A stretch of 64,000 nucleotides of DNA, taken from positions 58,985 to 122,984 of the forward strand of contig NZ_CADIJW010000013.1 of the NCBI RefSeq assembly GCF_902859745.1. Direction: 5' to 3'. The stretch comes from Achromobacter dolens. Lineage in GTDB: Bacteria; Pseudomonadota; Gammaproteobacteria; Burkholderiales; Burkholderiaceae_B. Position numbers and translations under genes: made by a program. The notes beneath the pieces are model-generated. The model ran no database searches. It was not told the DNA's origin and was given only the letters and a program-made list of their open reading frames with translations. Below, in pieces: positions 1 through 21,811 of the stretch (position 1 is its first letter; each line of letters begins with the position of its first letter).

Positions 1-147
1 GAAGAAGCCGCTGCCGCCTCCGCGTCACTGGACATGCAGGCCAAGAGCCTGACGCAAGCCGTCGCTGTCTTCAGGCTGCCGTCCGCCGCCGGTGGGCCAA
101 GCGCTACGATAGATCGCCCCATTCTGCTTGCAGGAGCCCAATCATGA
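1..147 (+). CDS. Methyl-accepting chemotaxis protein, C-terminal end only
   Basis: The window opens inside a gene. The frame starting at base 1 runs 48 codons to TGA at 145-147. It encodes an Ala/Glu-rich helix (EEAAAASASLDMQAKSLTQA) followed by VAVFRL, the usual end of the cytoplasmic signalling helix of chemoreceptors, and then a short Pro/Gly tail. The rest lies outside the window, so its ligand domain is unknown. No CheR-docking pentapeptide is seen at the C-terminus. The stop overlaps the start of the next gene as ATGA, so the two are probably translationally coupled. Confidence 0.72.
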   Translation, partial: EEAAAASASLDMQAKSLTQAVAVFRLPSAAGGPSATIDRPILLAGAQS

Positions 148-911
148 ATCACCGAAATCTGCTTCTCGGCCTGGTGCACTCGGCCCTCTTGTCCACCTGC
201 GCAATCATGCCGGCGATGTCCGCTGCGGCCGAGCCGGTACGCAACATCGTCCTGGTTCACGGTGCCTTCACCGATGGGTCGATATGGTCCGACGTCGTTG
301 TCCGCCTGCAAGCCAAGGGGTTTACCGTCACTTCGGTCCAGAACCCGCTCACTTCCCTGGCCGCCGACATCGAAGCCACCAAGCGCGTGCTGCGGCGTCA
401 GAAGAGCGACACGCTGATCGTGGGCCACTCGTGGGCAGGCGCGGTGGTGACTGCCGCCGCCAATGAGCCGAACGTCAGGGGAATTGCCTATGTGTCCGCG
501 TTGGTGCCGGGTTCCAACGAGTCAGTAGCCGAGATGTTCGAACGTCAGGCCGTGCCCATGGAAGCCTTGCATGCGGACCAGGACGGTTTGATCTGGCTGG
601 ACGAAGCCACATTCGGCCGCATCATGGCGGGCGACGTAGCTCCCGCGAAAGTGCGGCTATTGACAGCCATGCAGCAGCCCATCGCCGCCCAAGCATTCGG
701 CGAAAGAATAGGCCTTGCGGCGTGGCGCGACAAGCCCAGCTTTTATCTGCTGACGCAAGGCGATGCCGCCGTGCCCGAAGCGCTTCAGCGCAAGATGGCC
801 AAGGAGGCGAGATCGACCGTCACGACGTTGGCGTCGAGCCACCTGTCCATGGTCTCCAAGCCGCAAGCGGTCTCCGACTTCATTGAGCGGGCGGCACAAA
901 CGTTACCCTAA
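144..911 (+). CDS. Secreted alpha/beta hydrolase
   Basis: A 255-residue protein with an N-terminal signal peptide (hydrophobic stretch about residues 7-27, Ala-rich end near 29). The mature part has the alpha/beta-hydrolase pattern: an HGAF oxyanion-hole motif at 39-42, the nucleophile elbow GHSWAG at 94-99 with Ser96, a likely acid near TQGD, and a catalytic His in SSHLSM near the C-terminus. This matches the small esterase/EstC-like branch that carries GHSWAG. The natural substrate cannot be read from sequence. It overlaps the preceding chemoreceptor by ATGA. A candidate ribosome site (AGGAG, 132-136) lies upstream of ATG 144. It was probably acquired with the island, since its GC is lower than the backbone at the right of the window. 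Confidence 0.85.
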   Translation: MNHRNLLLGLVHSALLSTCAIMPAMSAAAEPVRNIVLVHGAFTDGSIWSDVVVRLQAKGFTVTSVQNPLTSLAADIEATKRVLRRQKSDTLIVGHSWAGAVVTAAANEPNVRGIAYVSALVPGSNESVAEMFERQAVPMEALHADQDGLIWLDEATFGRIMAGDVAPAKVRLLTAMQQPIAAQAFGERIGLAAWRDKPSFYLLTQGDAAVPEALQRKMAKEARSTVTTLASSHLSMVSKPQAVSDFIERAAQTLP

Positions 912-988
912 ACACTCTCCTTGTCGAGCACGTCCACTAACTGCCAAGAACGCTATTTGCAGATCAGCAAATAGCACTCAGAACTGGT

Positions 989-1021
989 GTCCGTTTCTGG
1001 CCGGGAGCCGTCAGCGAGTGA
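989..1021. repeat. Dispersed CTTCTGGCCGA-type repeat, copy 1
   Basis: The non-coding motif CCGTTTCTGGCCGGGAGC starts at 991. Related copies occur at 2131, 4511 and 11881 of this window, always between genes of the low-GC part of the island. No function is assigned. Confidence 0.5.
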
Positions 1022-1045
1022 TCTGCTCGAAAAAAATTGTCCAAA

Positions 1046-1104
1046 CCTGACGCCTGAGTTACGCCGACCCGCGGAGCGGGTTCGGCTTGAATGAATTGTT
1101 AGGC
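1046..1104 (-). other. Integron attC site (59-base element), second of a tandem pair
   Basis: On the minus strand this 59-bp stretch starts with the R'' core GCCTAAC, continues with AATTCATTCAAGCCGA, has a short GC-rich hairpin tip (CCGCTCCGCGG), then TCGGCGTAACTCA, and ends with GCGTCAGG. Length, imperfect palindrome and the ATTCAAGCCGA box match the attC sites of mobile integron cassettes such as aadA. The terminal core reads GTCAGG instead of GTTRRRY, so the cleavage triplet GTT is degenerate here. It lies 28 bp beyond another attC (1133-1190) with no gene between them. Confidence 0.75.
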
Positions 1105-1132
1105 CTTGGGTGAGGCCGAAGTATCCTCAGAA

Positions 1133-1190
1133 AGCTAACGTTGGAGCTCAACGGCGGCCGTAGACCGTCTGAGGGAACGACTAGTTAGAT
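1133..1190 (-). other. Integron attC site of the HNH cassette
   Basis: On the minus strand the 58-bp element runs from R'' ATCTAAC (1190-1184) to R' GTTAGCT (1139-1133). Both agree with the RYYYAAC/GTTRRRY consensus. Internal arms CTCAGACGG and CCGTTGAG pair imperfectly around a central TCTACGGCCG loop, as expected of a folded single-strand recombination site. It begins 22 bp after the stop codon of the HNH gene and in the same orientation, the normal place for the attC of a gene cassette. Confidence 0.8.
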
Positions 1191-1212
1191 TCCCGCGCGA
1201 CCGCCGCAATGA

Positions 1213-2019
1213 TCATCCCGTCTCCCAATCGATAAGCTTGTTGTGTTGCCGTATGTACTCGGGAAGTGGGCGATGCCGAGACAAACGCGGAACCTTCATG
1301 GGCTGGTTGTGTAGGTCGATGGATAGTGCAGCCTCCAGCTTGGAGTGCTCGCGCTCCTTGCCTTCTGGATCCCAATACATCATCCGATAGTCAGGCGTGA
1401 TGGTGAGGTATGCTTTGTCGAAGAGGCAATGATGCAGTGGATTCAATAGCAACCCGTTCCTCACATCCAAGCGCTGCTGGGGGGTTGCATACGCCCAGGG
1501 GATGATATGGCATGCTTGTAGCGCGTCTGGGAATCGAGTTCCGGAGAAAGCGCAACTCCAGGAATAGGCCTTCCGCACAGCGTCCCTAAACAAAATTTGC
1601 TGGACCCCTCGGGTTTTAACTTTTGCGTAGACTACTCCAGCGTCATCGGGGTTTTGCGTTAGGATCTTGAGGAGGCTCGGATATGACAGTCCTTCGGAAG
1701 CAAAGTCAAACGGGTTCTGTATGGTCTTCCACCCGAACGACCATACAGCTTCCAGCCCGCTCTCAAGGTCATTCGGATCGTGTGCAATAAACCCGGTGCC
1801 GGGCCGACCTGATCCATTGACAACAAGAATCGTAAGCGGCGGAAGCCTAGTCTCCAGACAATAGTCTTGAATCGGACCCAGAACATAGCGGATCGCCCGG
1901 TGATGCACGCCAATTCGAGCGCCCAGTCCACCATACGAGATAGTGTCTCTCGCTCTGGCGACATCGATTAGAACTTGCCAGGCAAGGCGCGCGCGTTCTA
2001 TTTGGTTAATAGATGACAT
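1213..2019 (-). CDS. HNH endonuclease with MGMT-like N-terminal domain, cassette gene
   Basis: A 268-residue protein. ATG 2019 is chosen over an upstream codon because GGAGAC sits 4-9 bases before it and the cassette boundary core GTTAGAT lies just upstream. Residues 10-80 (ISYGGLGARIG, RAIRYVLG, then a VVNGSGRPGTGF stretch) resemble the winged-helix core of O6-alkylguanine transferase-like proteins; I see no PCHR active site. Residues 155-205 form an HNH nuclease: CAFSG at 156, ACHIIPWA with His171, NGLLLNPLHH with Asn188 and His196/197. Cys156 and Cys170 could help bind a metal. Single-gene cassette with its own attC. The role is unknown; nucleases of this kind often serve defence or competition, which is inference. 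Confidence 0.75.
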   Translation of the reverse strand: MSSINQIERARLAWQVLIDVARARDTISYGGLGARIGVHHRAIRYVLGPIQDYCLETRLPPLTILVVNGSGRPGTGFIAHDPNDLESGLEAVWSFGWKTIQNPFDFASEGLSYPSLLKILTQNPDDAGVVYAKVKTRGVQQILFRDAVRKAYSWSCAFSGTRFPDALQACHIIPWAYATPQQRLDVRNGLLLNPLHHCLFDKAYLTITPDYRMMYWDPEGKEREHSKLEAALSIDLHNQPMKVPRLSRHRPLPEYIRQHNKLIDWETG

Positions 2020-2031
2020 CGTGTCTCCAGA

Positions 2032-2055
2032 ATCTAACGTTATTGTTAAGCCAAA
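2032..2055 (-). other. Partial attC / cassette boundary upstream of HNH gene
   Basis: On the minus strand TGGCTTAACAATAAC is followed by GTTAGAT (2038-2032). This equals the L'-R' half of an attC site and marks where the HNH cassette joins the preceding one. I could not find a convincing R''/L'' half within the usual 140 bp, so the upstream site appears degenerate or interrupted. Confidence 0.5.
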
Positions 2056-2100
2056 TGGCAATGGCCGTCATGCTGAGCCCCAAGGGTCCATAATTTCTCC

Positions 2101-2250
2101 ACGCGCTAGATTATTGCCCAGTTGGCGACAGACCGCTTCTGGCCGAGAGCCCTCCTTGTCGACCGGCCGATGACGACCCCTTTGCGTCACTCGCACATGC
2201 TTGTGCGAATGACCGCTTTGAATGTCAGCGCGGTCATCGCGAAGAATCTG
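2101..2250. repeat. Structured intergenic DNA with small inverted repeats (repeat copy 2)
   Basis: Between the deaminase and HNH genes there is no credible ORF. The stretch holds the motif ACCGCTTCTGGCCGAGAGC (2132-2150), a perfect hairpin CGCACA-TGCT-TGTGCG (2192-2207), and the inverted pair ATGACCGC (2209-2216) / GCGGTCAT (2230-2237). A minus-strand GTCTAAC at 2379-2373 may be a remnant R'' core of the deaminase cassette's attC. It looks like an intercassette relic or a small insertion. Confidence 0.5.
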
Positions 2251-2431
2251 AAGTCGGTCACGTTCTGGCATAGACACGAAGAGCAACCGGAAAGGTGCTT
2301 CTCTCTGGAAGCGACGACTCGGTGGGGGAGCAGCGGCGGGGGATGAGATTGCTTAGGCTAGCGCACGGTCCGTTAGACGCGAACGTAGGGAGTCGCATGG
2401 ACTCTTAGAACGTCGAATTCGGAGTCTTCTT

Positions 2432-3256
2432 TCACGTGCTGGTTACCTCTCGAACCTGCCATTTGAAAGTTAGGTCATACTCTGTCAATTCCTTCAGCTT
2501 TATGAGTACAGCAAACTTCGAATTCTTTGGATAGACGACCGCGATCTGCCCGACCCTCATCCTTGCAGCATGAGCAGTCTCACGAAATACAAGCGGATCA
2601 GAAATATCGTCAAAGTCGCGGGCGCCCAGCGCTTCGCGCACCGCATCATCGCCGTAATCTGCGTGAAGATCGACTATCCCCGAAGAGAACTGAATCAATC
2701 GCCATCGAATGTCAATGCTCGACGGATCAGTGCGGGACCGTTGAATCGCAAATCGCTTCCCGGCCGTGCCAACGACCCCGACGCGACGCGTACCTTCCGG
2801 CCCATACCCCTTATTTACGTCTCCATCCTTAAACGAGTTCTTCTCTACCTGTTCCCTCAGACTTGACTCGAAAAAGCTCACTTGGATACCGGCATTGAGG
2901 AGGGCGCTGTACCCTTGGCTGTACACCTTTCCGTTAGGATCCAATACGCCAATGATGACTTCGCTAACGGCATGTTGCGTGATGAGTTCGGCACAGGGTC
3001 GCTCAGGTTGTTCAGCATGAAACTCTACGCACGGTTCCAGCGTCGTCACGACTATCGCGCCATCCAGTTGACTCGCATGCAGTTTGCCGATGGCCACACG
3101 TTCCGCGTGCAACTTAGGGACTTCGCCGCGAAACCCTGTGGCCAATATCTCGCCGCCCTTCGCTATCACGACTCCCACTTTCGGAAACGTGTCGCAGTTA
3201 TTTTGCTCTTCGATGGCTTTCGCCATTAGTTCGTCTCTGGTGTAATTTCTGCTCAT
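2432..3256 (-). CDS. RibD-type cytidine deaminase with unknown C-terminal domain, cassette-like gene
   Basis: A 274-residue protein if ATG 3256 is used; an upstream TTG at 3313 is possible but has no better ribosome site. Residues 8-130 are a cytidine/deoxycytidylate deaminase fold: HAE at 50-52 supplies the zinc His and catalytic Glu, and EPC...RPC with Cys76 and Cys88 supplies the zinc cysteines; the spacing is closest to the RibD pyrimidine deaminase. There is no RibD reductase. Residues about 140-274 form a second, beta-rich domain that I do not recognise. The gene lies in the same direction as the HNH cassette and is followed by a possible R'' core at 2379-2373. A modified-nucleotide or toxin/defence role is speculative. 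Confidence 0.7.
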   Translation of the reverse strand: MSRNYTRDELMAKAIEEQNNCDTFPKVGVVIAKGGEILATGFRGEVPKLHAERVAIGKLHASQLDGAIVVTTLEPCVEFHAEQPERPCAELITQHAVSEVIIGVLDPNGKVYSQGYSALLNAGIQVSFFESSLREQVEKNSFKDGDVNKGYGPEGTRRVGVVGTAGKRFAIQRSRTDPSSIDIRWRLIQFSSGIVDLHADYGDDAVREALGARDFDDISDPLVFRETAHAARMRVGQIAVVYPKNSKFAVLIKLKELTEYDLTFKWQVREVTST

Positions 3257-3356
3257 AGAAAATCGATACAAAACGAAGTTGACGCCGATTTGCCGACACG
3301 ACGGTGCAAACAAATGGCGCTTATCGGCCGATTAGTCAATCATAGGCTTGACGTTT

Positions 3357-3412
3357 GACTAACAACTCATCGGCGCCCTGCGGCGCTGCAAGCCGGGTCC
3401 GGCATGTCAAAG
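3357..3412. other. Candidate degenerate attC site
   Basis: The plus strand reads GACTAACAACTCAT, a typical attC opening, then a GGCGCC/GGCGC-rich core, GCAAGCCGGG, and ends ATGTCAAAG. On the minus strand the end core is GTTAGTC, correctly placed 100 bp upstream of the deaminase start. One core (GTCAAAG) deviates from GTTRRRY, so this is weaker than the sites at 1046 and 1133. Confidence 0.45.
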
Positions 3413-3556
3413 TGGTCCTTACGGATGAACCCCGTACTGTTCGACATTCGGCCAAGTGGCACGTATGTGATCGCGAAGCGCTGGATAATCGCGGGCAATA
3501 AGAGCTACGTGATTGCCAACCAAGGACACGCGCGAAAACCTGTGCCGCAACCCGTC

Positions 3557-4332
3557 TTAAGTCTCCATCTCTTTGCTCGATCCAACGTGTGTACCGATGA
3601 GTTTCATGTCCGTCGACTTCCATGCCGGACGCTTCAAATGCGTACTCCACCAACCACCGCCGCTTGCGCCACGGAATGTGCATAGTGTTGCCGGTGTCGG
3701 ATCGTCGGCAAGAGTATCGACGTTGCCTTGCTGTGGAATCCAGACGTGAATTTCAAGGTGAGCGCCACAGAGGGCGGGGGCCAGGCTACTGGCAGGCGCA
3801 TGCTCATCGCCAGCCATTGTCGTTGAATACACAAGCAGTTTGACCCCGGTACCGCCGTCGTGATTTAGCATCAATTGCAGTGGGTATCCAGCAAGTGCCA
3901 GGAAATCGCGAGATGCGTCGATCGCCGAGGGAGAAAGAACTTCGATAGATCGTTCGCTCAAGAAAATCCGGTTGCCCGCCTCGATAGACGAGGCCGCATC
4001 TTTTTTAACCTCGTAATAGCCGAAATCCCTCCCACCGGAACATACGTAGCCAGATCTAATCGGGTCGAACAGGAACCGATGACGATATTCGCGGACGCCC
4101 AGCGCTATTGACTCGAAGGTGCCGTGCACGCAATGTCCAGCCGTCAGCACAAAAAAAAATCCCCTATTTTCACTAGCACTCCCGACCCACAATCCTGAGG
4201 CTCGGGGGCGCTTCCGAACCTGAAGATAGGAACAGTGAACGGTTTAAGGCGCTCCTGCAACTCGAGGCCGTGTTCTATTGGACCTTCCTGAGCGTGAATT
4301 AGGCTGTCCGCGCTCTGGTCGTTTGATTTCAA
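3557..4332 (-). pseudogene. Trypsin-like serine protease, split by a frameshift in a T9 tract
   Basis: Two overlapping minus-strand frames make one protease. The first (ATG 4332) ends soon after GSGVLVKIGDFFLC. The second resumes with FFFVLTAGHCVHG. They join at nine T's (4158-4150, read on the minus strand); one more T would restore a single frame. The restored protein has the catalytic His in TAGHC, a likely Asp in GGRDFGYYEV, and Ser in GASGGGWW, the chymotrypsin-fold triad. It ends soon after the Ser motif, about 255 residues in all. It could be a pseudogene, a phase-variable gene, or a sequencing error in the homopolymer. It lies in the cassette direction, upstream of the candidate attC at 3357. 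Confidence 0.7.
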
Positions 4333-5107
4333 GATTCAGCCATCCTGTTTCTGAAGTTACGGGCAATTTACCAAATCATGGTCGAGCTTGTGCTTCGTCA
4401 CCACAGCCTCACGCGAACGGGTGGAGCGCTAGTAGCGGAAAGAACAGCATCGACGAGTGGTGTGGTCCGTCATGAGCGGTTTAACGGACGTCAGAACCTA
4501 GCAACGAAGGTACGCTTCTGGCCGATAGTGGTCTCACAATGGCGGCGGCAGGTGTATTGACCCAGCAGAACCTGCTCAGGTTAAGCGCCTAGTACAAATG
4601 CTTCAGCCGGGGTCTTCATGCCTCGCGGCAGGTGCGGGCGCCGGTGGCTGTTAATGCGTATTAGTCCCCTACAACGCGGCAGGTGGGCTTGATAGTTTCA
4701 AAGCGATGCCGATGCGCGCATCGCCTTCAAACTTACGGATCACGCGTTCGACCATGCCGTTTTGTTGCGGGCGTCGAACTCCTGGCGCAGTCCGCACGCA
4801 CTCAACATCACGATCGCCGAATGAACGCGTTCAATCAAGAGGAGCGCCATTTTGGCCTCATGTCTCTGCCCGATCGTGATTTGCTCTGCTCAGACATATT
4901 AGGGCGCCGTCGACCTCCGCGGCGAGATAATGCACCGTCCACTCCAGTTTGGCGTGCCTAAGGCGCAGCTTATACGCTCGTTGAGCTGTGTACGAGGCGA
5001 TCGGTGGAGTACCCCGGGTCCTATGCGCCAACTACGCATGCAGGATTGGCCAAATTGATCGGAACGCCTCTTTTTACGGTAGGCGCTCCATGACGCTTCA
5101 ACTGTGC
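4333..5107. other. Gene-poor remnant DNA
   Basis: No intact gene is seen here. It contains repeat copy 3 (GCTTCTGGCCGATAGTGG, 4514-4531) and the IS3 transposase relic described separately. From 4840 to 5107 only short, broken frames occur; this part may be further decayed insertion-sequence DNA. Confidence 0.5.
4581..4830 (-). pseudogene. IS3-family transposase remnant (end of DDE integrase core)
   Basis: On the minus strand at about 4771-4725 the frame reads RPQQNGMVERVIRKFE, the conserved segment around the last catalytic Glu of IS3-type rve integrases. About 110 bases on, after stops and a frame change, NSHRRPHLPRGMKTPAEAFVLGA* ends at 4581, matching the family ending YNHRRPHQALGMKTPAEAF. 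The beginning of the transposase and the inverted repeats are gone. It is a dead relic that marks past rearrangement next to the cassette region. Confidence 0.75.
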
Positions 5108-5566
5108 CTATTGCTTCAGCGGCGTTGTCAACACGACGTCATCGCTATCGACGACAAACACCGCCAGTAGCTTTGCCGGTTCCGTCTTGCTCGCGTTGGC
5201 ACTTACATCGTGCCGGTCGCCGGGCATCTCGGTGAAATTCTGTCCTTCGGTATAGGTACGTAGCGGCCCGCCGTTGAGCTGGTTCAATACCGCACCTTCC
5301 AGCACGGTTGCATAAATGATCGCCGACTTTGCATGCATATGCGCTGCGTTGACACCCCCCGGCTCGTACTCGACCAGCACGCCTTTGATGCTCTTGCCAG
5401 GCATGTCGGGGATCGCTTGCTGATACACCTGGGTGACTTTGACTCCGACGGTTTGTTTGGCAAATGCGGCTGGCGCGACCGGCGCCTGGTTTGTCGAGTG
5501 ATCGTGTGCAAAAACTGCCTGCATGGGCAGAGCTGCGAGTAGCAGCGAAGCAATGAGTTTCTTCAT
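5108..5566 (-). CDS. Secreted cupin-domain protein
   Basis: ATG 5566 is preferred (GGAG ribosome site 7 bases upstream), giving 152 residues. Residues 1-20 (MKKLIASLLLAALPMQAVFA) are a classic signal peptide with an AxA-like cleavage site, so the protein is exported to the periplasm. The rest is a single small cupin barrel with the metal-ligand-like pattern GGVNAAHMHAKS and a later PGDRHDV. Small periplasmic cupins are often sensor- or detoxification-associated; the exact role is unknown. It sits 43 bp downstream of the NmrA-like gene on the same strand and probably shares its transcript. Confidence 0.8.
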   Translation of the reverse strand: MKKLIASLLLAALPMQAVFAHDHSTNQAPVAPAAFAKQTVGVKVTQVYQQAIPDMPGKSIKGVLVEYEPGGVNAAHMHAKSAIIYATVLEGAVLNQLNGGPLRTYTEGQNFTEMPGDRHDVSANASKTEPAKLLAVFVVDSDDVVLTTPLKQ

Positions 5567-5608
5567 GGTGGAACTCCGGTTGGACAATCTGGATGTGATT
5601 CGCCAAAT

Positions 5609-6376
5609 TCAGTGCACTGCCTTCTGGCGTTGCAGCCAGCTGCCGCGCGTGGTGGTGCCCAGACGAGCTTGACCGAGCGGGACCAGAGACTCTTCGGTCA
5701 CAGTGCCACCAAAGTACTTCGCTTGCGGGTCGCGCTCGACCACGCGTGCGTCGTTGGTCAAAGCCAGATGGCGCCCGACGATGTCGGCCAATGGCGCGCG
5801 CTGCGGGCCCGCAACCTCCACGACTCCGTTTGCCGGCGCGCCAGTGGCAATGTCCGCCAGGAATGCCGCGACATCGTCGGCAGCGATCGGCTGGAAGAGG
5901 CCAGGGGAGAGGCGGATCTTTCCTTCTACGACGCTAGAGTCGGCGATACCCGTCAGAAACTCCATGAACTGTGTGGCACGCACGATCGTGTACGGGGTGC
6001 CGGCGTTGGTGACGATCGCTTCCTGCGCGAGCTTGCCTTGGAAGTAACCGTTGTCAGGCATGCGATCCACACCAACGATGGAGAGCATTACATGGTGCTT
6101 TACCTTGACAACCGCTTCAGCGGCGGCGATGTTACGGCCTGAGGTCTCGAAGAACGACTTCACGACGGCCGGATCGTAGGACGGGGCGTTGCTGACGTCT
6201 ATCACGGCATGAGCGCCGTTCAACGCCTGTGCAAGGCCTTCTCCGGTAATGCTGTTGACGCCTGTCGCAGGCGCTGCGACCACAACGTCGTGGCCGGACG
6301 TTTGCAACAAGGCCACAACCTTGCTGCCGATGAGACCGGTACCACCCACAACTACGATTTTCTGACTCGCTTGCAT
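5609..6376 (-). CDS. NmrA-like NAD(P)-binding atypical SDR
   Basis: A 255-residue Rossmann protein starting at ATG 6376, with AGGAGAG eight bases upstream. The dinucleotide-binding GGTGLIGSKVV loop lies at residues 10-20, after KIVVVGG. It lacks the SDR YxxxK pair, so it belongs to the atypical NmrA/YwnB-like group of redox-sensing or NAD(P)H-dependent proteins. The typical hydrophobic PYTIVRATQFMEF segment is present. It is divergent from the SDR at 6607, and the 230-bp space between them carries a 27-bp perfect inverted repeat that probably controls both. Confidence 0.82.
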   Translation of the reverse strand: MQASQKIVVVGGTGLIGSKVVALLQTSGHDVVVAAPATGVNSITGEGLAQALNGAHAVIDVSNAPSYDPAVVKSFFETSGRNIAAAEAVVKVKHHVMLSIVGVDRMPDNGYFQGKLAQEAIVTNAGTPYTIVRATQFMEFLTGIADSSVVEGKIRLSPGLFQPIAADDVAAFLADIATGAPANGVVEVAGPQRAPLADIVGRHLALTNDARVVERDPQAKYFGGTVTEESLVPLGQARLGTTTRGSWLQRQKAVH

Positions 6377-6464
6377 GATGACTCTCCTGGTTATTCGCTG
6401 GCCTGCGGTTGTTGCAGGACTGGATGAATAGTAGGCAGCGGCGGAGCGTTGTGCCGTTCCAGTA

Positions 6465-6537
6465 TTGCGCGGACTGTTCAGATCTTGCGGTGATCGTCGG
6501 AAAACTGGCGACCGCAAGATCTGAACAGTCCGCGCAA
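6465..6537. promoter_or_regulatory. Perfect 27-bp inverted repeat between divergent genes
   Basis: The left arm at 6465-6491 (TTGCGCGGACTGTTCAGATC continuing TTGCGGT) and the right arm at 6511-6537 are exact reverse complements, separated by 19 nt. It lies 88 bp from the NmrA-like start and 69 bp from the SDR start, so each gene sees the same sequence in the same relative orientation. A duplicated operator for an AraC-type regulator is the simplest reading; an invertible or hairpin-borne insertion is possible. It is not followed by a T tract on either side. Confidence 0.7.
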
Positions 6538-6606
6538 CCTTGGGAAAGCCCAGTGACCGGCCCAGGCATATAAAGGTGCGGTGTATATCCTCACATCAAG
6601 GTCGGC

Positions 6607-10385: not shown

Positions 10386-10554
10386 CTAAATAGGGGCCGA
10401 CGTAAAAAGCCCCGCACAGGCGAGAGTAAATGAGTTTCCAAAGGGAACGATGACCGTAGCCTGGCCTATGCTAGGTTCCGACGGCGACGCAGACGCTCGC
10501 CGACGAAAATGGAAGCAATTGGCCGGCAAGCGACCGCTCGCCGGCCGGGATGCG

Positions 10555-11181
10555 TCAAACCTCGGTTTGCTCTGCCATCTCAAGAGCATCGTCGACCTCG
10601 ATGCCGAGATAGCGAACTGTGCTTTCCAGCTTCGTATGCCCGAGCAGCAGCTGTACAGCCCGAAGATTCTTCGTCCGGCGGTAGATCAGCGAGGCTTTTG
10701 TACGGCGCATAGTGTGGGTGCCATATGCGGTATCGTCGAGGCCAATCGATGCGACCCAGCGATGCACAATACGGGCGTACTGCCGCGTCGACAGATGCGG
10801 TGACGTATGCAAGCGGCTCGGAAACAGAAAATCCGCCGCCTTTAGTCCTCGCGCCTCGATCCATGCTTCAAGGCTCTCACGGGTTTGCTCCGTTATCTCG
10901 AATTGAACCGGACGCTGGGTCTTTTGTTGCATGACGGTGGCTCTCGCGGCCACATGGCTTCCGTGACGTATGTCCTGCACCTGCAATCGCGTGAGATCGC
11001 ACGCTCTAAGCTTGCTATCGATTGCGAGATTGAACATTGCGAGTTCCCGGACGTTGGACGCCATCTTCAGTCTCGTTCGGATTGCCCAAATTTCTCCTAG
11101 CTTTAGAGGTGGCTTCTGCCCGGTGAGTTTGCCCTTGTTCCATGGCGCAGGACGGCCAACGGTCACATTCGCGGATTCCAT
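10555..11181 (-). CDS. Stand-alone tyrosine recombinase (catalytic domain)
   Basis: A 208-residue protein consisting essentially of the catalytic domain of phage-type integrases. The RKHRY set is present: KLRACDLTRL (Arg), THTMRRTKA (His and second Arg), LLGHTK (His), and TVRYLGI (Tyr). The N-terminal core-binding SAM-like domain is reduced to about 25 residues (RPAPWNKGKLTGQKPPL). Such short integrase-like proteins are common orphans in Proteobacteria and in mobile DNA; their substrates are not known. It lies next to a P-loop kinase gene and two changes of GC content. It is intact, so it could still be active. Confidence 0.88.
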   Translation of the reverse strand: MESANVTVGRPAPWNKGKLTGQKPPLKLGEIWAIRTRLKMASNVRELAMFNLAIDSKLRACDLTRLQVQDIRHGSHVAARATVMQQKTQRPVQFEITEQTRESLEAWIEARGLKAADFLFPSRLHTSPHLSTRQYARIVHRWVASIGLDDTAYGTHTMRRTKASLIYRRTKNLRAVQLLLGHTKLESTVRYLGIEVDDALEMAEQTEV

Positions 11182-11303
11182 GACAATCTCCTTTCGCGTA
11201 AAGGGAGATTCAGTGTGCTCCTACGGAGGGTCGCTATCCGACCCTGAGCCGACCTTTCCCTGGCCCGATAGCTGTCTTTCAAGACGCGTGCTGGCTGGCT
11301 TGC

Positions 11304-11828
11304 TCAGACGTCAAACGACGCGTTCGCCCCCTCCGTGTCGAAGCTAATCTCGAACTCTTCGCATTCGAGTTCGTCGGGCGACTCCCAAAGCTTGCTCGCC
11401 ATCTCGAAGACATGATCCGGTACGACCATGGAAAACGTGGGACCTCGCTCTTCATTTCTGCGTCGAACTCGCGCACGACGGATTTCCAAGGGTGCGTCGA
11501 GGACATGGAGGTGAGGGGGAAATCCTTCGTTCGTGATCATTCGACAGAACTGGATTCTTGGTTGCTGCTGGATCAGACCAAGTTCGAGCACAACGTCTCG
11601 ACCCGACGCCAGTACTCTGCGGCTGTGGTTCCATATCAGACCCAGCAACCGTTCTTTTCGCTCAACATACCAAGGCACAAAATCGCCGCCTGGGCGGTCT
11701 GGGCTGAACAGCGTCGCAAACCACTCGTCGAGCGGGATGTGCACGCCGTTGCTGCTTGCAGCCAGAGCCGCGCCGAAGGTGGATTTTCCAGCCCCTACCG
11801 GGCCCTCGATCAAATGAACTTGAGACAT
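11304..11828 (-). CDS. P-loop kinase / AAA_33-type ATPase
   Basis: A 174-residue protein with Walker A GPVGAGKST at residues 9-17, a mid-protein DVVLELG segment, and an arginine-rich lid (RRARVRRRNEERG). The organisation is that of the small AAA_33/zeta-like and antibiotic phosphotransferase kinases that phosphorylate small molecules or nucleotides. The natural substrate is unknown. The ribosome site is weak. It lies 122 bp from the tyrosine recombinase, on the same strand. Similar small kinases are frequent cargo of integrons and islands, but I find no attC immediately after this one. Confidence 0.75.
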   Translation of the reverse strand: MSQVHLIEGPVGAGKSTFGAALAASSNGVHIPLDEWFATLFSPDRPGGDFVPWYVERKERLLGLIWNHSRRVLASGRDVVLELGLIQQQPRIQFCRMITNEGFPPHLHVLDAPLEIRRARVRRRNEERGPTFSMVVPDHVFEMASKLWESPDELECEEFEISFDTEGANASFDV

Positions 11829-12383: not shown

Positions 12384-13742
12384 ATGACCGCGCAGACCGA
12401 TTCCCGCAGCCGTGACGTCCAGACCGAGCGCCTGCTGACCGCCCCGATTTTGCCTGTGATGTTGTCGCTTGCCGGCCCGACACTGCTGGTGATGCTCAGC
12501 CAAACGTTTGTTGGACTGATGGAGGTGTGGTTTCTCTCCCAGCTCGGTGAAGACGTGCTCGCTGGCGTGTCGGTTGTGTTTCCACTGCTGGCATTGACGA
12601 CGGCGCTTGCGACCGGCGCGGTCGGTGGGGGAATGCTTGGAGCGGTTGCGCGGGCGCTGGGGCGCAACGACCGCGTGCAAGCCAACGCGCTGGTTTGGCA
12701 TGCTGTCGCCATTGCGGTGGCGTTTGGGCTTGTCACGGCAGGGCTCGTCTTGGCTTTTGGCTCCGCGGCGTTCAGTGCCATGGGAGCTAGCGGCGAAGCG
12801 CTTGCGCACGCCGACCACTATGCCGCCGTCGTCTTTGGCGGCGCACCGCTGATATGGCTGTTCAATGCACTGCTGGCGCTCATTCGGGGCAGTGGCAATG
12901 TGCGCTTGCCGATGCGGGTGGTGTGCGGCGGCGGCGTCATCCTGATACCGGTATCGTGGCTGCTGATCTTTGGCGCGGCAGGCTTTCAGGGGCTGGGTGT
13001 GACAGGCGGCGCGTTGGCAATGGTTTTGTATTACGTCGTTGGTAGCCTGGTTTTCGCAATATATCTTTGGCGTGGCCAAGGAGTGCTGCAGCCGGTCGCC
13101 AGACCGGTGCGGCTGCAACGTCGGCTATTTGCCGAAATTCTCAAGGTCGGCGGCGTGTCGGCCGTTATCGCGACAAGTACCAATCTCACCATCGCCATCG
13201 TTACCGGCTACGTTGGGGCGTACGGTCTGGCGGCCGTGGCCGGATACGGGGCGGCTGCGCGATTGGAATTCTTGTTGGTGCCGCTCAGTTTCGGCATCGG
13301 CGGGCCTGCCGCGATCCTGATTGGCACCAACGCTGCGGCAGGCAGGATCGATCGCGCACGCCGCGCCGCGTTGATCGCAGCCTGTCTGGGGTTCGGCGTT
13401 GCCGAGACTATTGGGTTGGTGGTTGCGATATGGCCCGAATTATGGCTGGGCGCGTTTTTGACGGACCCCGAAAGTGTGGCGACGGGAAGCGTTTACCTGC
13501 GCCATGTTGGCCCCTTTTTTGGCTTCTTCGGGCTTGGATTCACCCAGTACTGCGCCGCGCAAGGCACCGGAAAGATGGCGGTACCGTTGGCGGGGGCCTT
13601 GGCGCGCACGGTGGTGGCGTTGGGTGGGGGGCTGATCGCCACCACGCAGACCGGGCTATTCGTCAGCGTGGGCCTGGGTATGGCGGCTTTTGGTGCGGCG
13701 GGGCTTTATGCGCTGCTGCGCGATTGCCGGAAACAGGAATAA
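12384..13742 (+). CDS. MATE-family multidrug efflux transporter
   Basis: ATG 12384 gives 452 residues; longer starts would add a non-membrane leader. Twelve hydrophobic segments follow in two pseudo-repeats, starting with PILPVMLSLAGPTLLVMLSQ, with the family's internal Gly/Ala-rich helices and an AAARLEFLLVPLSFGIGG segment typical of the seventh helix. It exports cationic or toxic compounds in exchange for Na+ or H+. It sits alone, in the same direction as the GlxA-SDR-MFS-AhpD cluster downstream, and could belong to the same detoxification block. Confidence 0.9.
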   Translation: MTAQTDSRSRDVQTERLLTAPILPVMLSLAGPTLLVMLSQTFVGLMEVWFLSQLGEDVLAGVSVVFPLLALTTALATGAVGGGMLGAVARALGRNDRVQANALVWHAVAIAVAFGLVTAGLVLAFGSAAFSAMGASGEALAHADHYAAVVFGGAPLIWLFNALLALIRGSGNVRLPMRVVCGGGVILIPVSWLLIFGAAGFQGLGVTGGALAMVLYYVVGSLVFAIYLWRGQGVLQPVARPVRLQRRLFAEILKVGGVSAVIATSTNLTIAIVTGYVGAYGLAAVAGYGAAARLEFLLVPLSFGIGGPAAILIGTNAAAGRIDRARRAALIAACLGFGVAETIGLVVAIWPELWLGAFLTDPESVATGSVYLRHVGPFFGFFGLGFTQYCAAQGTGKMAVPLAGALARTVVALGGGLIATTQTGLFVSVGLGMAAFGAAGLYALLRDCRKQE

Positions 13743-20052: not shown

Positions 20053-20084
20053 AGCCGAAGACCGAACGGTCTTCGGCTTTTTTT
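20053..20084 (+). terminator. Rho-independent terminator of radC
   Basis: Perfect 11-bp stem AGCCGAAGACC / GGTCTTCGGCT (20053-20078) with loop GAAC, followed by T's. It serves the plus-strand radC; on the minus strand there is no T tract. Confidence 0.9.
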
Positions 20085-21573
20085 ACGCCGCGAGTAGTTG
20101 CTTGGCGGTTAGCCGCTTTTGAAGCTCGGCTGGCGCCACGGCCCCCGACAGCAGTCTTTCCAAATAGTCGCCGAGCTTCGCCCATGCTGCTTGCTTCTCG
20201 TCGGCGTAGTCGTAGAGCTGGTAGTGCCGCCTGACACGGTTCTTGCCCGTGTGAATGACGTGATTTTGGCAGCGGTCGATGATGTTTGGATCGATTCCCA
20301 GTGATTCCATGATGGTCGACCCCGTTCGCCGTAAATCATGAGGCGTCCAATTACCGTTTTGGCCTTTGCCGAGCACCAGGGAGTTGTCCGAAGCGCGGCG
20401 TGCTTTGGGCTTTCCGTTGAACATGGCTTGCCGATCTTTGATTTGCTTAGTAAAGGCCTGCTTGTACATCGGTTGGTCTACCCCCGCGTCATCATTGTCG
20501 CGCGAAGGTAGGAGCCAGCGGGATGATCCTGCCAGGCTGACAAGGGTCTCGAAATGCTTGATTGCGAAGGGTGACAGAAAGACCAGGTGGTCGCGCTTCT
20601 GTGATTTTCTGCCCTTGACGTTCGCCTTGGGAATGAACCACGTACCTTCTCGGAGATCGAGATGCGTAATTTCGGTTAGGTGCAATTCCCCTATCCGGCA
20701 TAGCGTGCTCAAACAGATCCAGGAAACTGCCTGCAACGCCTTGGATGGAGGCTTCCTCTTTCGCTTGTCATCCGAAGCGAGATACTGGTCCTCCAACTCG
20801 CGGTATCGAGTCTGGAGCTCGACAATCTCAATAGGCGGGAGAACGCGTTCGCGCGCGTTATCCGGGTCGTAATCGTCCGCCAGGAGCACCCCGAGCTCAA
20901 CCAGCTCAACCGGATTTCCTTCCGAAAGCAGCTTTCGCCATGGTTGGCGCTTTTCTGCCCAATGGAACATCTGGCCCAGTATTTGGAAGGTCACCTCGGC
21001 AAGCCGATTGCAACCGCGGCCGACAATCGAGCGGATCACTCGCTCAATATCCTTCTCGCGAATTGATCGCACGGGAGTATCACCGATCAAGGGAAGCACG
21101 TCCTTTTCAACGATGCGCTTCACTTCGGTGTTGCCATCTGCTCGCTTCACTCCCGATTCCAGCCAGCTTTTATACATCTCTTGGAACGAAAGGGCGTCGG
21201 TCGTGGCCTCTTCTTCAGCGGCGGTTACAGCGGCAGATTCAGCTGCCATAGCCTCCCGCGCCTGGGCTTTCTCCAAGTCGCGGACGGCTGACGGATTGCG
21301 GCCCGCCTTAATGTCCGCCCGCGCTTTGTTCCTGGCGGAGCGGATCTCGTCGAGTGTGCGCTCCGGCCATGAGCCGCAGTAGAATCTCTTTACCTTGTCG
21401 CCCATGCGATAGGCGTATCGCCACACCACGGCCATCGTGCCGCGCTGAATGCGGATTTCCCCCGTCAGGCCGTCCCCATCGGCCAGGTGATCACCGACCC
21501 ATTCCGCCGGTACCGCTTCCAGTTCTTTGACGGTCCACCGCGCACCTTTTCCGCGTTTTGGGTATCTCGTCAT
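20083..21573 (-). CDS. Site-specific integrase, P4-like tyrosine recombinase
   Basis: A 496-residue protein. The N-terminal DUF4102-like arm-binding part (about 30-100: AYRMGDKVKRFYCGSWPERT) is followed by a core-binding helical region (150-240) and the catalytic domain. Catalytic residues: Arg in LCRIGELHL, His/Arg in HDLRRTG, and Tyr in HYQLYDY near the end. Length and layout match integrases that use tRNA 3' ends. It begins 194 bp from the tRNA-Pro fragment at 21767 and is transcribed away from it, into the island. Three 12-bp tandem repeats lie upstream of the start. Confidence 0.93.
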   Translation of the reverse strand: MTRYPKRGKGARWTVKELEAVPAEWVGDHLADGDGLTGEIRIQRGTMAVVWRYAYRMGDKVKRFYCGSWPERTLDEIRSARNKARADIKAGRNPSAVRDLEKAQAREAMAAESAAVTAAEEEATTDALSFQEMYKSWLESGVKRADGNTEVKRIVEKDVLPLIGDTPVRSIREKDIERVIRSIVGRGCNRLAEVTFQILGQMFHWAEKRQPWRKLLSEGNPVELVELGVLLADDYDPDNARERVLPPIEIVELQTRYRELEDQYLASDDKRKRKPPSKALQAVSWICLSTLCRIGELHLTEITHLDLREGTWFIPKANVKGRKSQKRDHLVFLSPFAIKHFETLVSLAGSSRWLLPSRDNDDAGVDQPMYKQAFTKQIKDRQAMFNGKPKARRASDNSLVLGKGQNGNWTPHDLRRTGSTIMESLGIDPNIIDRCQNHVIHTGKNRVRRHYQLYDYADEKQAAWAKLGDYLERLLSGAVAPAELQKRLTAKQLLAA

Positions 21574-21646: not shown

Positions 21647-21766
21647 CATTTTTGCGGCTGTCAGCGTACATTAGCGAACGTCGACGAACAAGGAAATTTG
21701 TATAAAGCCTTATGAATCAGTTGGTTATTCGTTCGCTGACGTTCGCCGACGTTCGCGCGTTTCTAA

Positions 21767-21811
21767 TTTGGGAGCAGAGGGTCGCGAGTTCGAATCCCGC
21801 CGCCCCGACCA
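21767..21811 (+). other. Attachment site: 3' half of tRNA-Pro(TGG)
   Basis: The sequence equals a tRNA-Pro from its anticodon loop (TTTGGGA, anticodon TGG) through the T arm (GTTCGAATC) to CGCCCCGACCA. The bases upstream do not continue the tRNA, so the 5' half is missing. The T stem GCGAG/CCCGC carries an A-C mismatch, as in a decaying copy. This is the duplicated 3' end left by integration and marks the right boundary of the island; the complete tRNA gene is expected to the left of the window. Confidence 0.85.

Follow-up and report, generated by a model that had tools for sequence, protein, structure and literature searches.

A probable minimal cluster of attC sites lacking an integrase, with an HNH nuclease gene as cassette, in a tRNA-Pro island of Achromobacter dolens

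A stretch of 64,000 nucleotides from the genome of Achromobacter dolens, here called the window, raises the question whether a group of three minus-strand genes close to its left end is an array of integron cassettes, and how such an array could exist in a genome in which no integron integrase is in view. The window lies on contig C13 (122,984 bases) of an assembly of 6.29 Mb in 114 contigs. An initial annotation, made from the letters alone, had described a split protease gene, a deaminase gene and an HNH nuclease gene separated by two good and two weaker attC sites, placed them in a tRNA-borne island and suggested a cluster of attC sites lacking an integrase (CALIN). We find it highly probable that the locus is a minimal CALIN inside an integrative island at a tRNA-Pro gene.

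The assignment as a CALIN made here rests on attC calls by two covariance models of our own, R1 and R2. To obtain sites for the models 17 array stretches were fetched, genomes of the family carrying IntI over the cut-off being 16 out of 250, and scanned for paired boxes with AAC and GTT as obligatory letters. The box scan is unspecific by itself, block-shuffled sequence yielding some 10 hits per Mb at a score of 19.2 and 100 at 17.0, and a few of the training sites of R1 may therefore be wrong. These are 32 hand-picked sites, none longer than 78 bp and all in array orientation, which come from 11 of the 17 stretches; the remaining stretches, longer sites and two stretches from the genus Achromobacter (L085 and L086) were excluded. 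R1 was built from the alignment of these sites by pairing the R and L boxes; 85.7% of the cells of this alignment pair, versus 26–47% in slid versions. R2 is built from 64 sites, to which the window contributes none.

Both models called the two good sites (sites A and B, Table 1), and these are the sole matches at E ≤ 10 in the window with R1 as well as with R2. Site A reaches 51.6 bits with R1 (E = 2.1e-9) and 51.8 bits with R2 (E = 1.7e-9), all E values of the two sites referring to the 64 kb window. Folding of the bottom strand had been proposed as a check, and site A passes it: its fold, with R and L helices and an extrahelical base, is better than that of 197 among 200 shuffles (z = -2.48). 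An equally good fold is obtained with the top strand (z = -2.50). Site B scores 21.6 bits (R1) and 23.4 bits (R2). The two sites are separated by 28 nt, forming a gene-free unit, and share one orientation, which is that of the strand of the genes. Site B is likely, not certainly, an attC site, in view of its position, its two R boxes and a partial L box with an L helix. With two scored sites that point the same way, and with no genomic IntI over the cut-off, the locus agrees with the proposed CALIN, at its minimum size.

Sequences resembling site A occur on plasmids. With an 81-bp query we found such stretches in 2659 of 72,556 records, 2624 of them at 80–90% identity and 33 at 90–95%; no match spans 80% of the query. 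In plasmid pKPN5, whose integron carries IntI1, the intercassette site that separates a YciI-family gene from cmlA5 shares 92.9% identity with site A over a 56-bp stretch, and the genes run in the same direction as in the window. Another look-alike forms the aacA34/aadA2 junction upstream of qacEdelta1 and sul1. At the sequence level there is no second copy of site A in the A. dolens genome. Elsewhere in the same genome one weak attC-like match was seen (C45:28547-28615, 26.8 bits, E = 0.077).

Which of the three genes are cassettes? The HNH gene has at its 5' end a core-like GTTAGAT, then a ribosome-binding site (GGAG) and the ATG, and at its 3' end site B, 22 nt past the stop codon and in gene orientation. 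Read from the sequence, the GTTAGAT motif is probably the left recombination point of the cassette. Relatives of the gene were looked up with an alignment as query, since a single-sequence query gave none; among the best 15 of the 75 loci obtained, 4 have an attC site 8–54 nt from the gene match on the same strand. As judged from these sequence contexts, the HNH gene is the only one of the three whose cassette status is established.

Table 1. Positions of the array, its genes and the features of the surrounding island (window coordinates unless a contig is named)
Feature	Position	Strand	Details
attC site A	1045..1104	-	R'' GCCTAAC (1104-1098), R' GTCAGGT (1051-1045); called by covariance models R1 and R2
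attC site B	1133..1190	-	R'' ATCTAAC (1190-1184), R' GTTAGCT (1139-1133); 3' of HNH gene
HNH cassette gene	1213..2019	-	268 aa; PF13391, E = 2.8e-14
Core-like GTTAGAT	2032..2038	-	12 nt upstream of HNH start codon; read from sequence
RibD-like zinc deaminase gene	2432..3256	-	beta-rich C-terminal domain; PF00383, E = 4.8e-13; RibD fold matches
Split gene, two overlapping frames	3557..4332 (3557-4192, 4144-4332)	-	run of nine A at 4151-4159
Decayed insertion-sequence remnant	4551..4793		IS3-type by eye; upstream side of the set
Island integrase	20083..21573	-	496-aa tyrosine recombinase, not IntI; PF00589, 44.6 bits, over cut-off
Island right end	21767..21811	+	perfect 45-nt copy of the tRNA-Pro 3' end
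tRNA-Pro gene	C13:45091-45167 (L016:6107-6183)		13.8 kb left of window

For the other two genes the cassette layout was not borne out, and the two weaker sites were not called. With filters off in 900–5000, the next-best match after A and B is 2032–2051 (11.4 bits with R1, 11.7 bits with R2), a match with a loop of 6 nt that falls short of the length of an attC; near 3305–3401 scores do not exceed 8.4 bits and neither model makes a call. A further attC-like pair at 4479–4586, which came from the box scan, was rejected as neither R1 nor R2 calls it. Past the deaminase stop codon an R''-like GTCTAAC is present on the minus strand (2372–2378), at which no attC is called. More than 300 bp with repeats in between separate it from the GTTAGAT core, and an attC site of the deaminase gene may have been interrupted here by an insertion. 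The pattern CGYTTCTGGCCGRNAG has three copies in the whole genome, all around the cassette region and in one orientation (992–1007, 2134–2149 and 4513–4528), the control read backward giving none, and stretches similar to 2131–2182 are present in other Achromobacter genomes.

The family assignments of the initial annotation stand for the HNH nuclease and the deaminase, and fall for the protease: both pieces of the split gene are without a Pfam or NCBIfam hit at E ≤ 0.01, and its protease likeness consists of motifs picked out by eye. That this gene is split was seen correctly, the frame break lying at a run of nine A. Its larger piece has no PADLOC match and a PDB search returned one row at chance level (E = 0.25). 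A relative with 58% identity is present on Burkholderia contaminans plasmids (2 records), where a search of 6.5 kb gave no attC match at E ≤ 1. Relatives of the deaminase were limited to its own copy in 399 genomes of the order (E ≤ 1e-40) and in 398 genomes of the phylum (E ≤ 1e-30), two samples that overlap; in the protein database relatives are up to 96% identical. The Pfam and NCBIfam searches showed no likeness to resistance genes for any of the three genes. Their GC content is 53–54% versus 64% for the window.

Several observations weigh against a CALIN of two sites with a cassette gene. Site B is only moderate by its E values (0.012 with R1, 0.0044 with R2), and its bottom strand fails the folding check that site A passes (z = -0.09, 82 of 200 shuffles being equally good). 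The core of site A is GTC, in contrast to the GTT of 62 of 64 reference sites, a set seeded by a scan that requires GTT. R1 and R2 call no attC at the left boundary of the HNH cassette, nor any for the deaminase or the split gene. Eleven of the 15 scanned HNH loci are without an attC call, and in an assembly of 114 contigs an IntI gene could lie in a gap. The first of these points would suit a remnant with a single attC, in which A is genuine, the R''/R' pair of B arose by chance and the HNH gene arrived otherwise. A simple search for R''/R' boxes, which yields 5 pairs on the two strands of the window, two of them being both strands of site B, can be read in the same direction. Nevertheless site B is the second-best match in 128 kb of strand, falls next to site A in the same orientation and directly follows a gene whose relatives are cassettes elsewhere, and we consider the single-site remnant improbable.

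The absence of an IntI over the cut-off was confirmed for the whole assembly. With the IntI model TIGR02249 nothing exceeds the cut-off, the best match having 78 versus 265 bits. Matches at such levels below threshold are also present in all 14 control genomes, and we therefore take them to be ordinary chromosomal recombinases. Could the array belong to a complete integron, with an integrase hidden in an assembly gap? The number of contigs would allow it, and of four copies of 4550–4661 in the same genome (87% identity), relatives of the neighboring insertion sequence, two are at contig ends. However, the array lies centrally in its 123 kb contig, about 60 kb from each end, and nowhere in the assembly does an IntI exceed the cut-off; we regard this explanation as very improbable.

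In 43 species genomes of Achromobacter no IntI was found at E ≤ 1e-30 or over the cut-off. The controls of this search were silent too; its positive control was IntI over the cut-off in the family genomes mentioned above. attC matches at E ≤ 0.1 under stricter filters are present in 7 of the 43 genomes, that is in A. dolens and 6 others. Since attC matches occur in 7 and IntI over the cut-off in none of the 43, cassettes seem to arrive from outside the genus. In one of the other genomes three attC sites (38.6, 25.6 and 50.9 bits) flank two ORFs, of 99 and 288 aa (L085:5975-7390), and IntI likewise stays below the cut-off there. Among the papers that a literature search on integrons, genomic islands and attC sites in Achromobacter gave, none names the genus in its title.

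With a minimal CALIN as the preferred explanation, an integrase acting in trans, in an ancestor of the cell or in a previous carrier of the island, would have inserted the cassette DNA via its attC sites. The HNH gene would be a cassette bringing its own ribosome-binding site, and without IntI the array would be frozen, mobilization in trans being possible. The GTC core of site A would represent either a joint with a target other than attI or a decayed core. The first option corresponds to a special case of the minimal CALIN, in which an integrase in trans placed the cassettes at a non-classical attG-like site of the island and no integron has decayed there. The non-canonical core of the terminal attC (G/TCAGGT) is what is expected if the target supplies the bases after the G, and no intI was found in the genome; insertion at attG sites is described in PMC12901181. 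A point change explains the GTC core equally well, and no empty site is known: when positions 1–6600 were compared with the 43 Achromobacter genomes, both flanks were never found side by side. We regard this special case as conceivable, at somewhat less than an even chance.

What might the cassette encode? By fold matches the HNH protein consists of an N-terminal winged-helix domain (about residues 5–94) and an HNH_2 nuclease domain (about 132–266), the latter related to that of TagI and VcaM4I, which are modification-dependent HNH endonucleases. In PADLOC two HNH families match, one of them labelled type II restriction enzyme; four other proteins submitted gave no match. The HNH part matches the NCBIfam model for a phosphorothioated-DNA restriction enzyme at 43.9 bits, below its cut-off of 180. 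The protein is probably a stand-alone modification-dependent nuclease, and it would cut DNA in which its N-terminal domain recognizes a modified base. The defence role ascribed to the cargo would derive only from the HNH nuclease domain.

The N-terminal domain may be alkyltransferase-like (ATL), an assignment that is weak. In AGT/ATL proteins, the ATL domain retains the base-flipping tyrosine and arginine and lacks the catalytic cysteine. With residues matched by eye, Y29 and R44 are invariant in 21 of 21 sequences, and position 62, the place expected for the cysteine, is leucine in 19 of 21. A further reading would be a base-flipping ATL domain without repair cysteine joined to a McrA/TagI-type HNH nuclease, that is a restriction enzyme spread by integrons which cuts phage or damaged DNA carrying guanine with bulky O6-type modifications and which, as an attC cassette moving between unrelated proteobacteria, is parked here. 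We rate this lower because unrelated winged-helix rows score nearly as high as alkyltransferases in the N-terminal domain, and consider it rather unlikely. No ATL-HNH fusion turned up among the papers listed by the literature searches. The text of PMC11037411 contains neither "alkyltransferase" nor "MGMT"; PMC4619093, a paper on GmrSD, contains both "methylguanine" and "HNH".

The island claimed for the locus was recovered with an extent of about 35.6 kb, from the tRNA-Pro gene to the direct repeat (Table 1). At its right edge, collinear sequence (85%) begins at 21766 in 1 of 15 other Achromobacter genomes searched. The NCBIfam integrase match of the island integrase is far below the cut-off. 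The sole tRNA call in the window, a tRNA-Ser at 13231–13306, was rejected as an anchor of the island: it is contained in an ORF of 510 aa, which by eye is MATE-like, and is probably false. Parts of the insertion-sequence remnant next to the array match other Achromobacter genomes at 69–87%.

Further into the island, 10520–11245 is a unit of about 726 bp whose sole gene encodes a 208-aa tyrosine recombinase, and copies of it are located at unrelated places in other Achromobacter genomes. Ten copies compared are 89.8–95.4% identical, with sharp ends near TGGCCGGC...GCCGGCC and GGGTCGCTATCCGACCC. One left flank reads GACCGCTTC/TGGCCGA, the others being similar, and resembles the repeat at 992, 2134 and 4513; as far as these flanks tell, the unit may target intergenic hairpin repeats. 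The protein family is large (at least 8000 relatives, all 8000 scored candidates matching), and no publication fitting such a small unit by its title was found. Adjoining the unit is an AAA_33 kinase-like gene (11304–11828, E = 5.9e-18) with a sub-threshold zeta-toxin match.

CALINs are common and the array itself is one more example; its cargo is of more interest, the HNH family consisting of widespread, uncharacterized nucleases. If the N-terminal domain is an ATL-like sensor, modification-dependent restriction would come to include a base-flipping domain familiar from DNA repair. Among modification-dependent HNH endonucleases TagI is an SRA-HNH and VcaM4I an EVE-HNH protein (PMC6212794, PMC7897488). 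The protein of the window has an HNH nuclease domain related to theirs, together with the winged-helix domain that may be alkyltransferase-like.

As an array, the locus differs from a complete integron by the lack of an intI gene over the cut-off anywhere in the genome. The same separates it from the class 1 integron of pKPN5, with which it shares a closely similar attC site in the same orientation to the genes. IntegronFinder 2 defines CALINs by at least 2 attC sites and no integrase, with a mean of almost 6 sites (PMC9024848). The array in the window has both properties with R1 and R2 as models; compared with a typical CALIN it is of minimum size, one of its two sites is weak and one supposed attC is not callable. 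In Xanthomonas, PMC12444791 describes attC clusters without integrase, some of two cassettes, in a genus with an ancestral integron, and states that CALINs are mobilizable in trans. Clusters of attC sites without an integrase are thus common to both, whereas in Achromobacter, the host genus here, IntI over the cut-off was found in 0 of 43 genomes.

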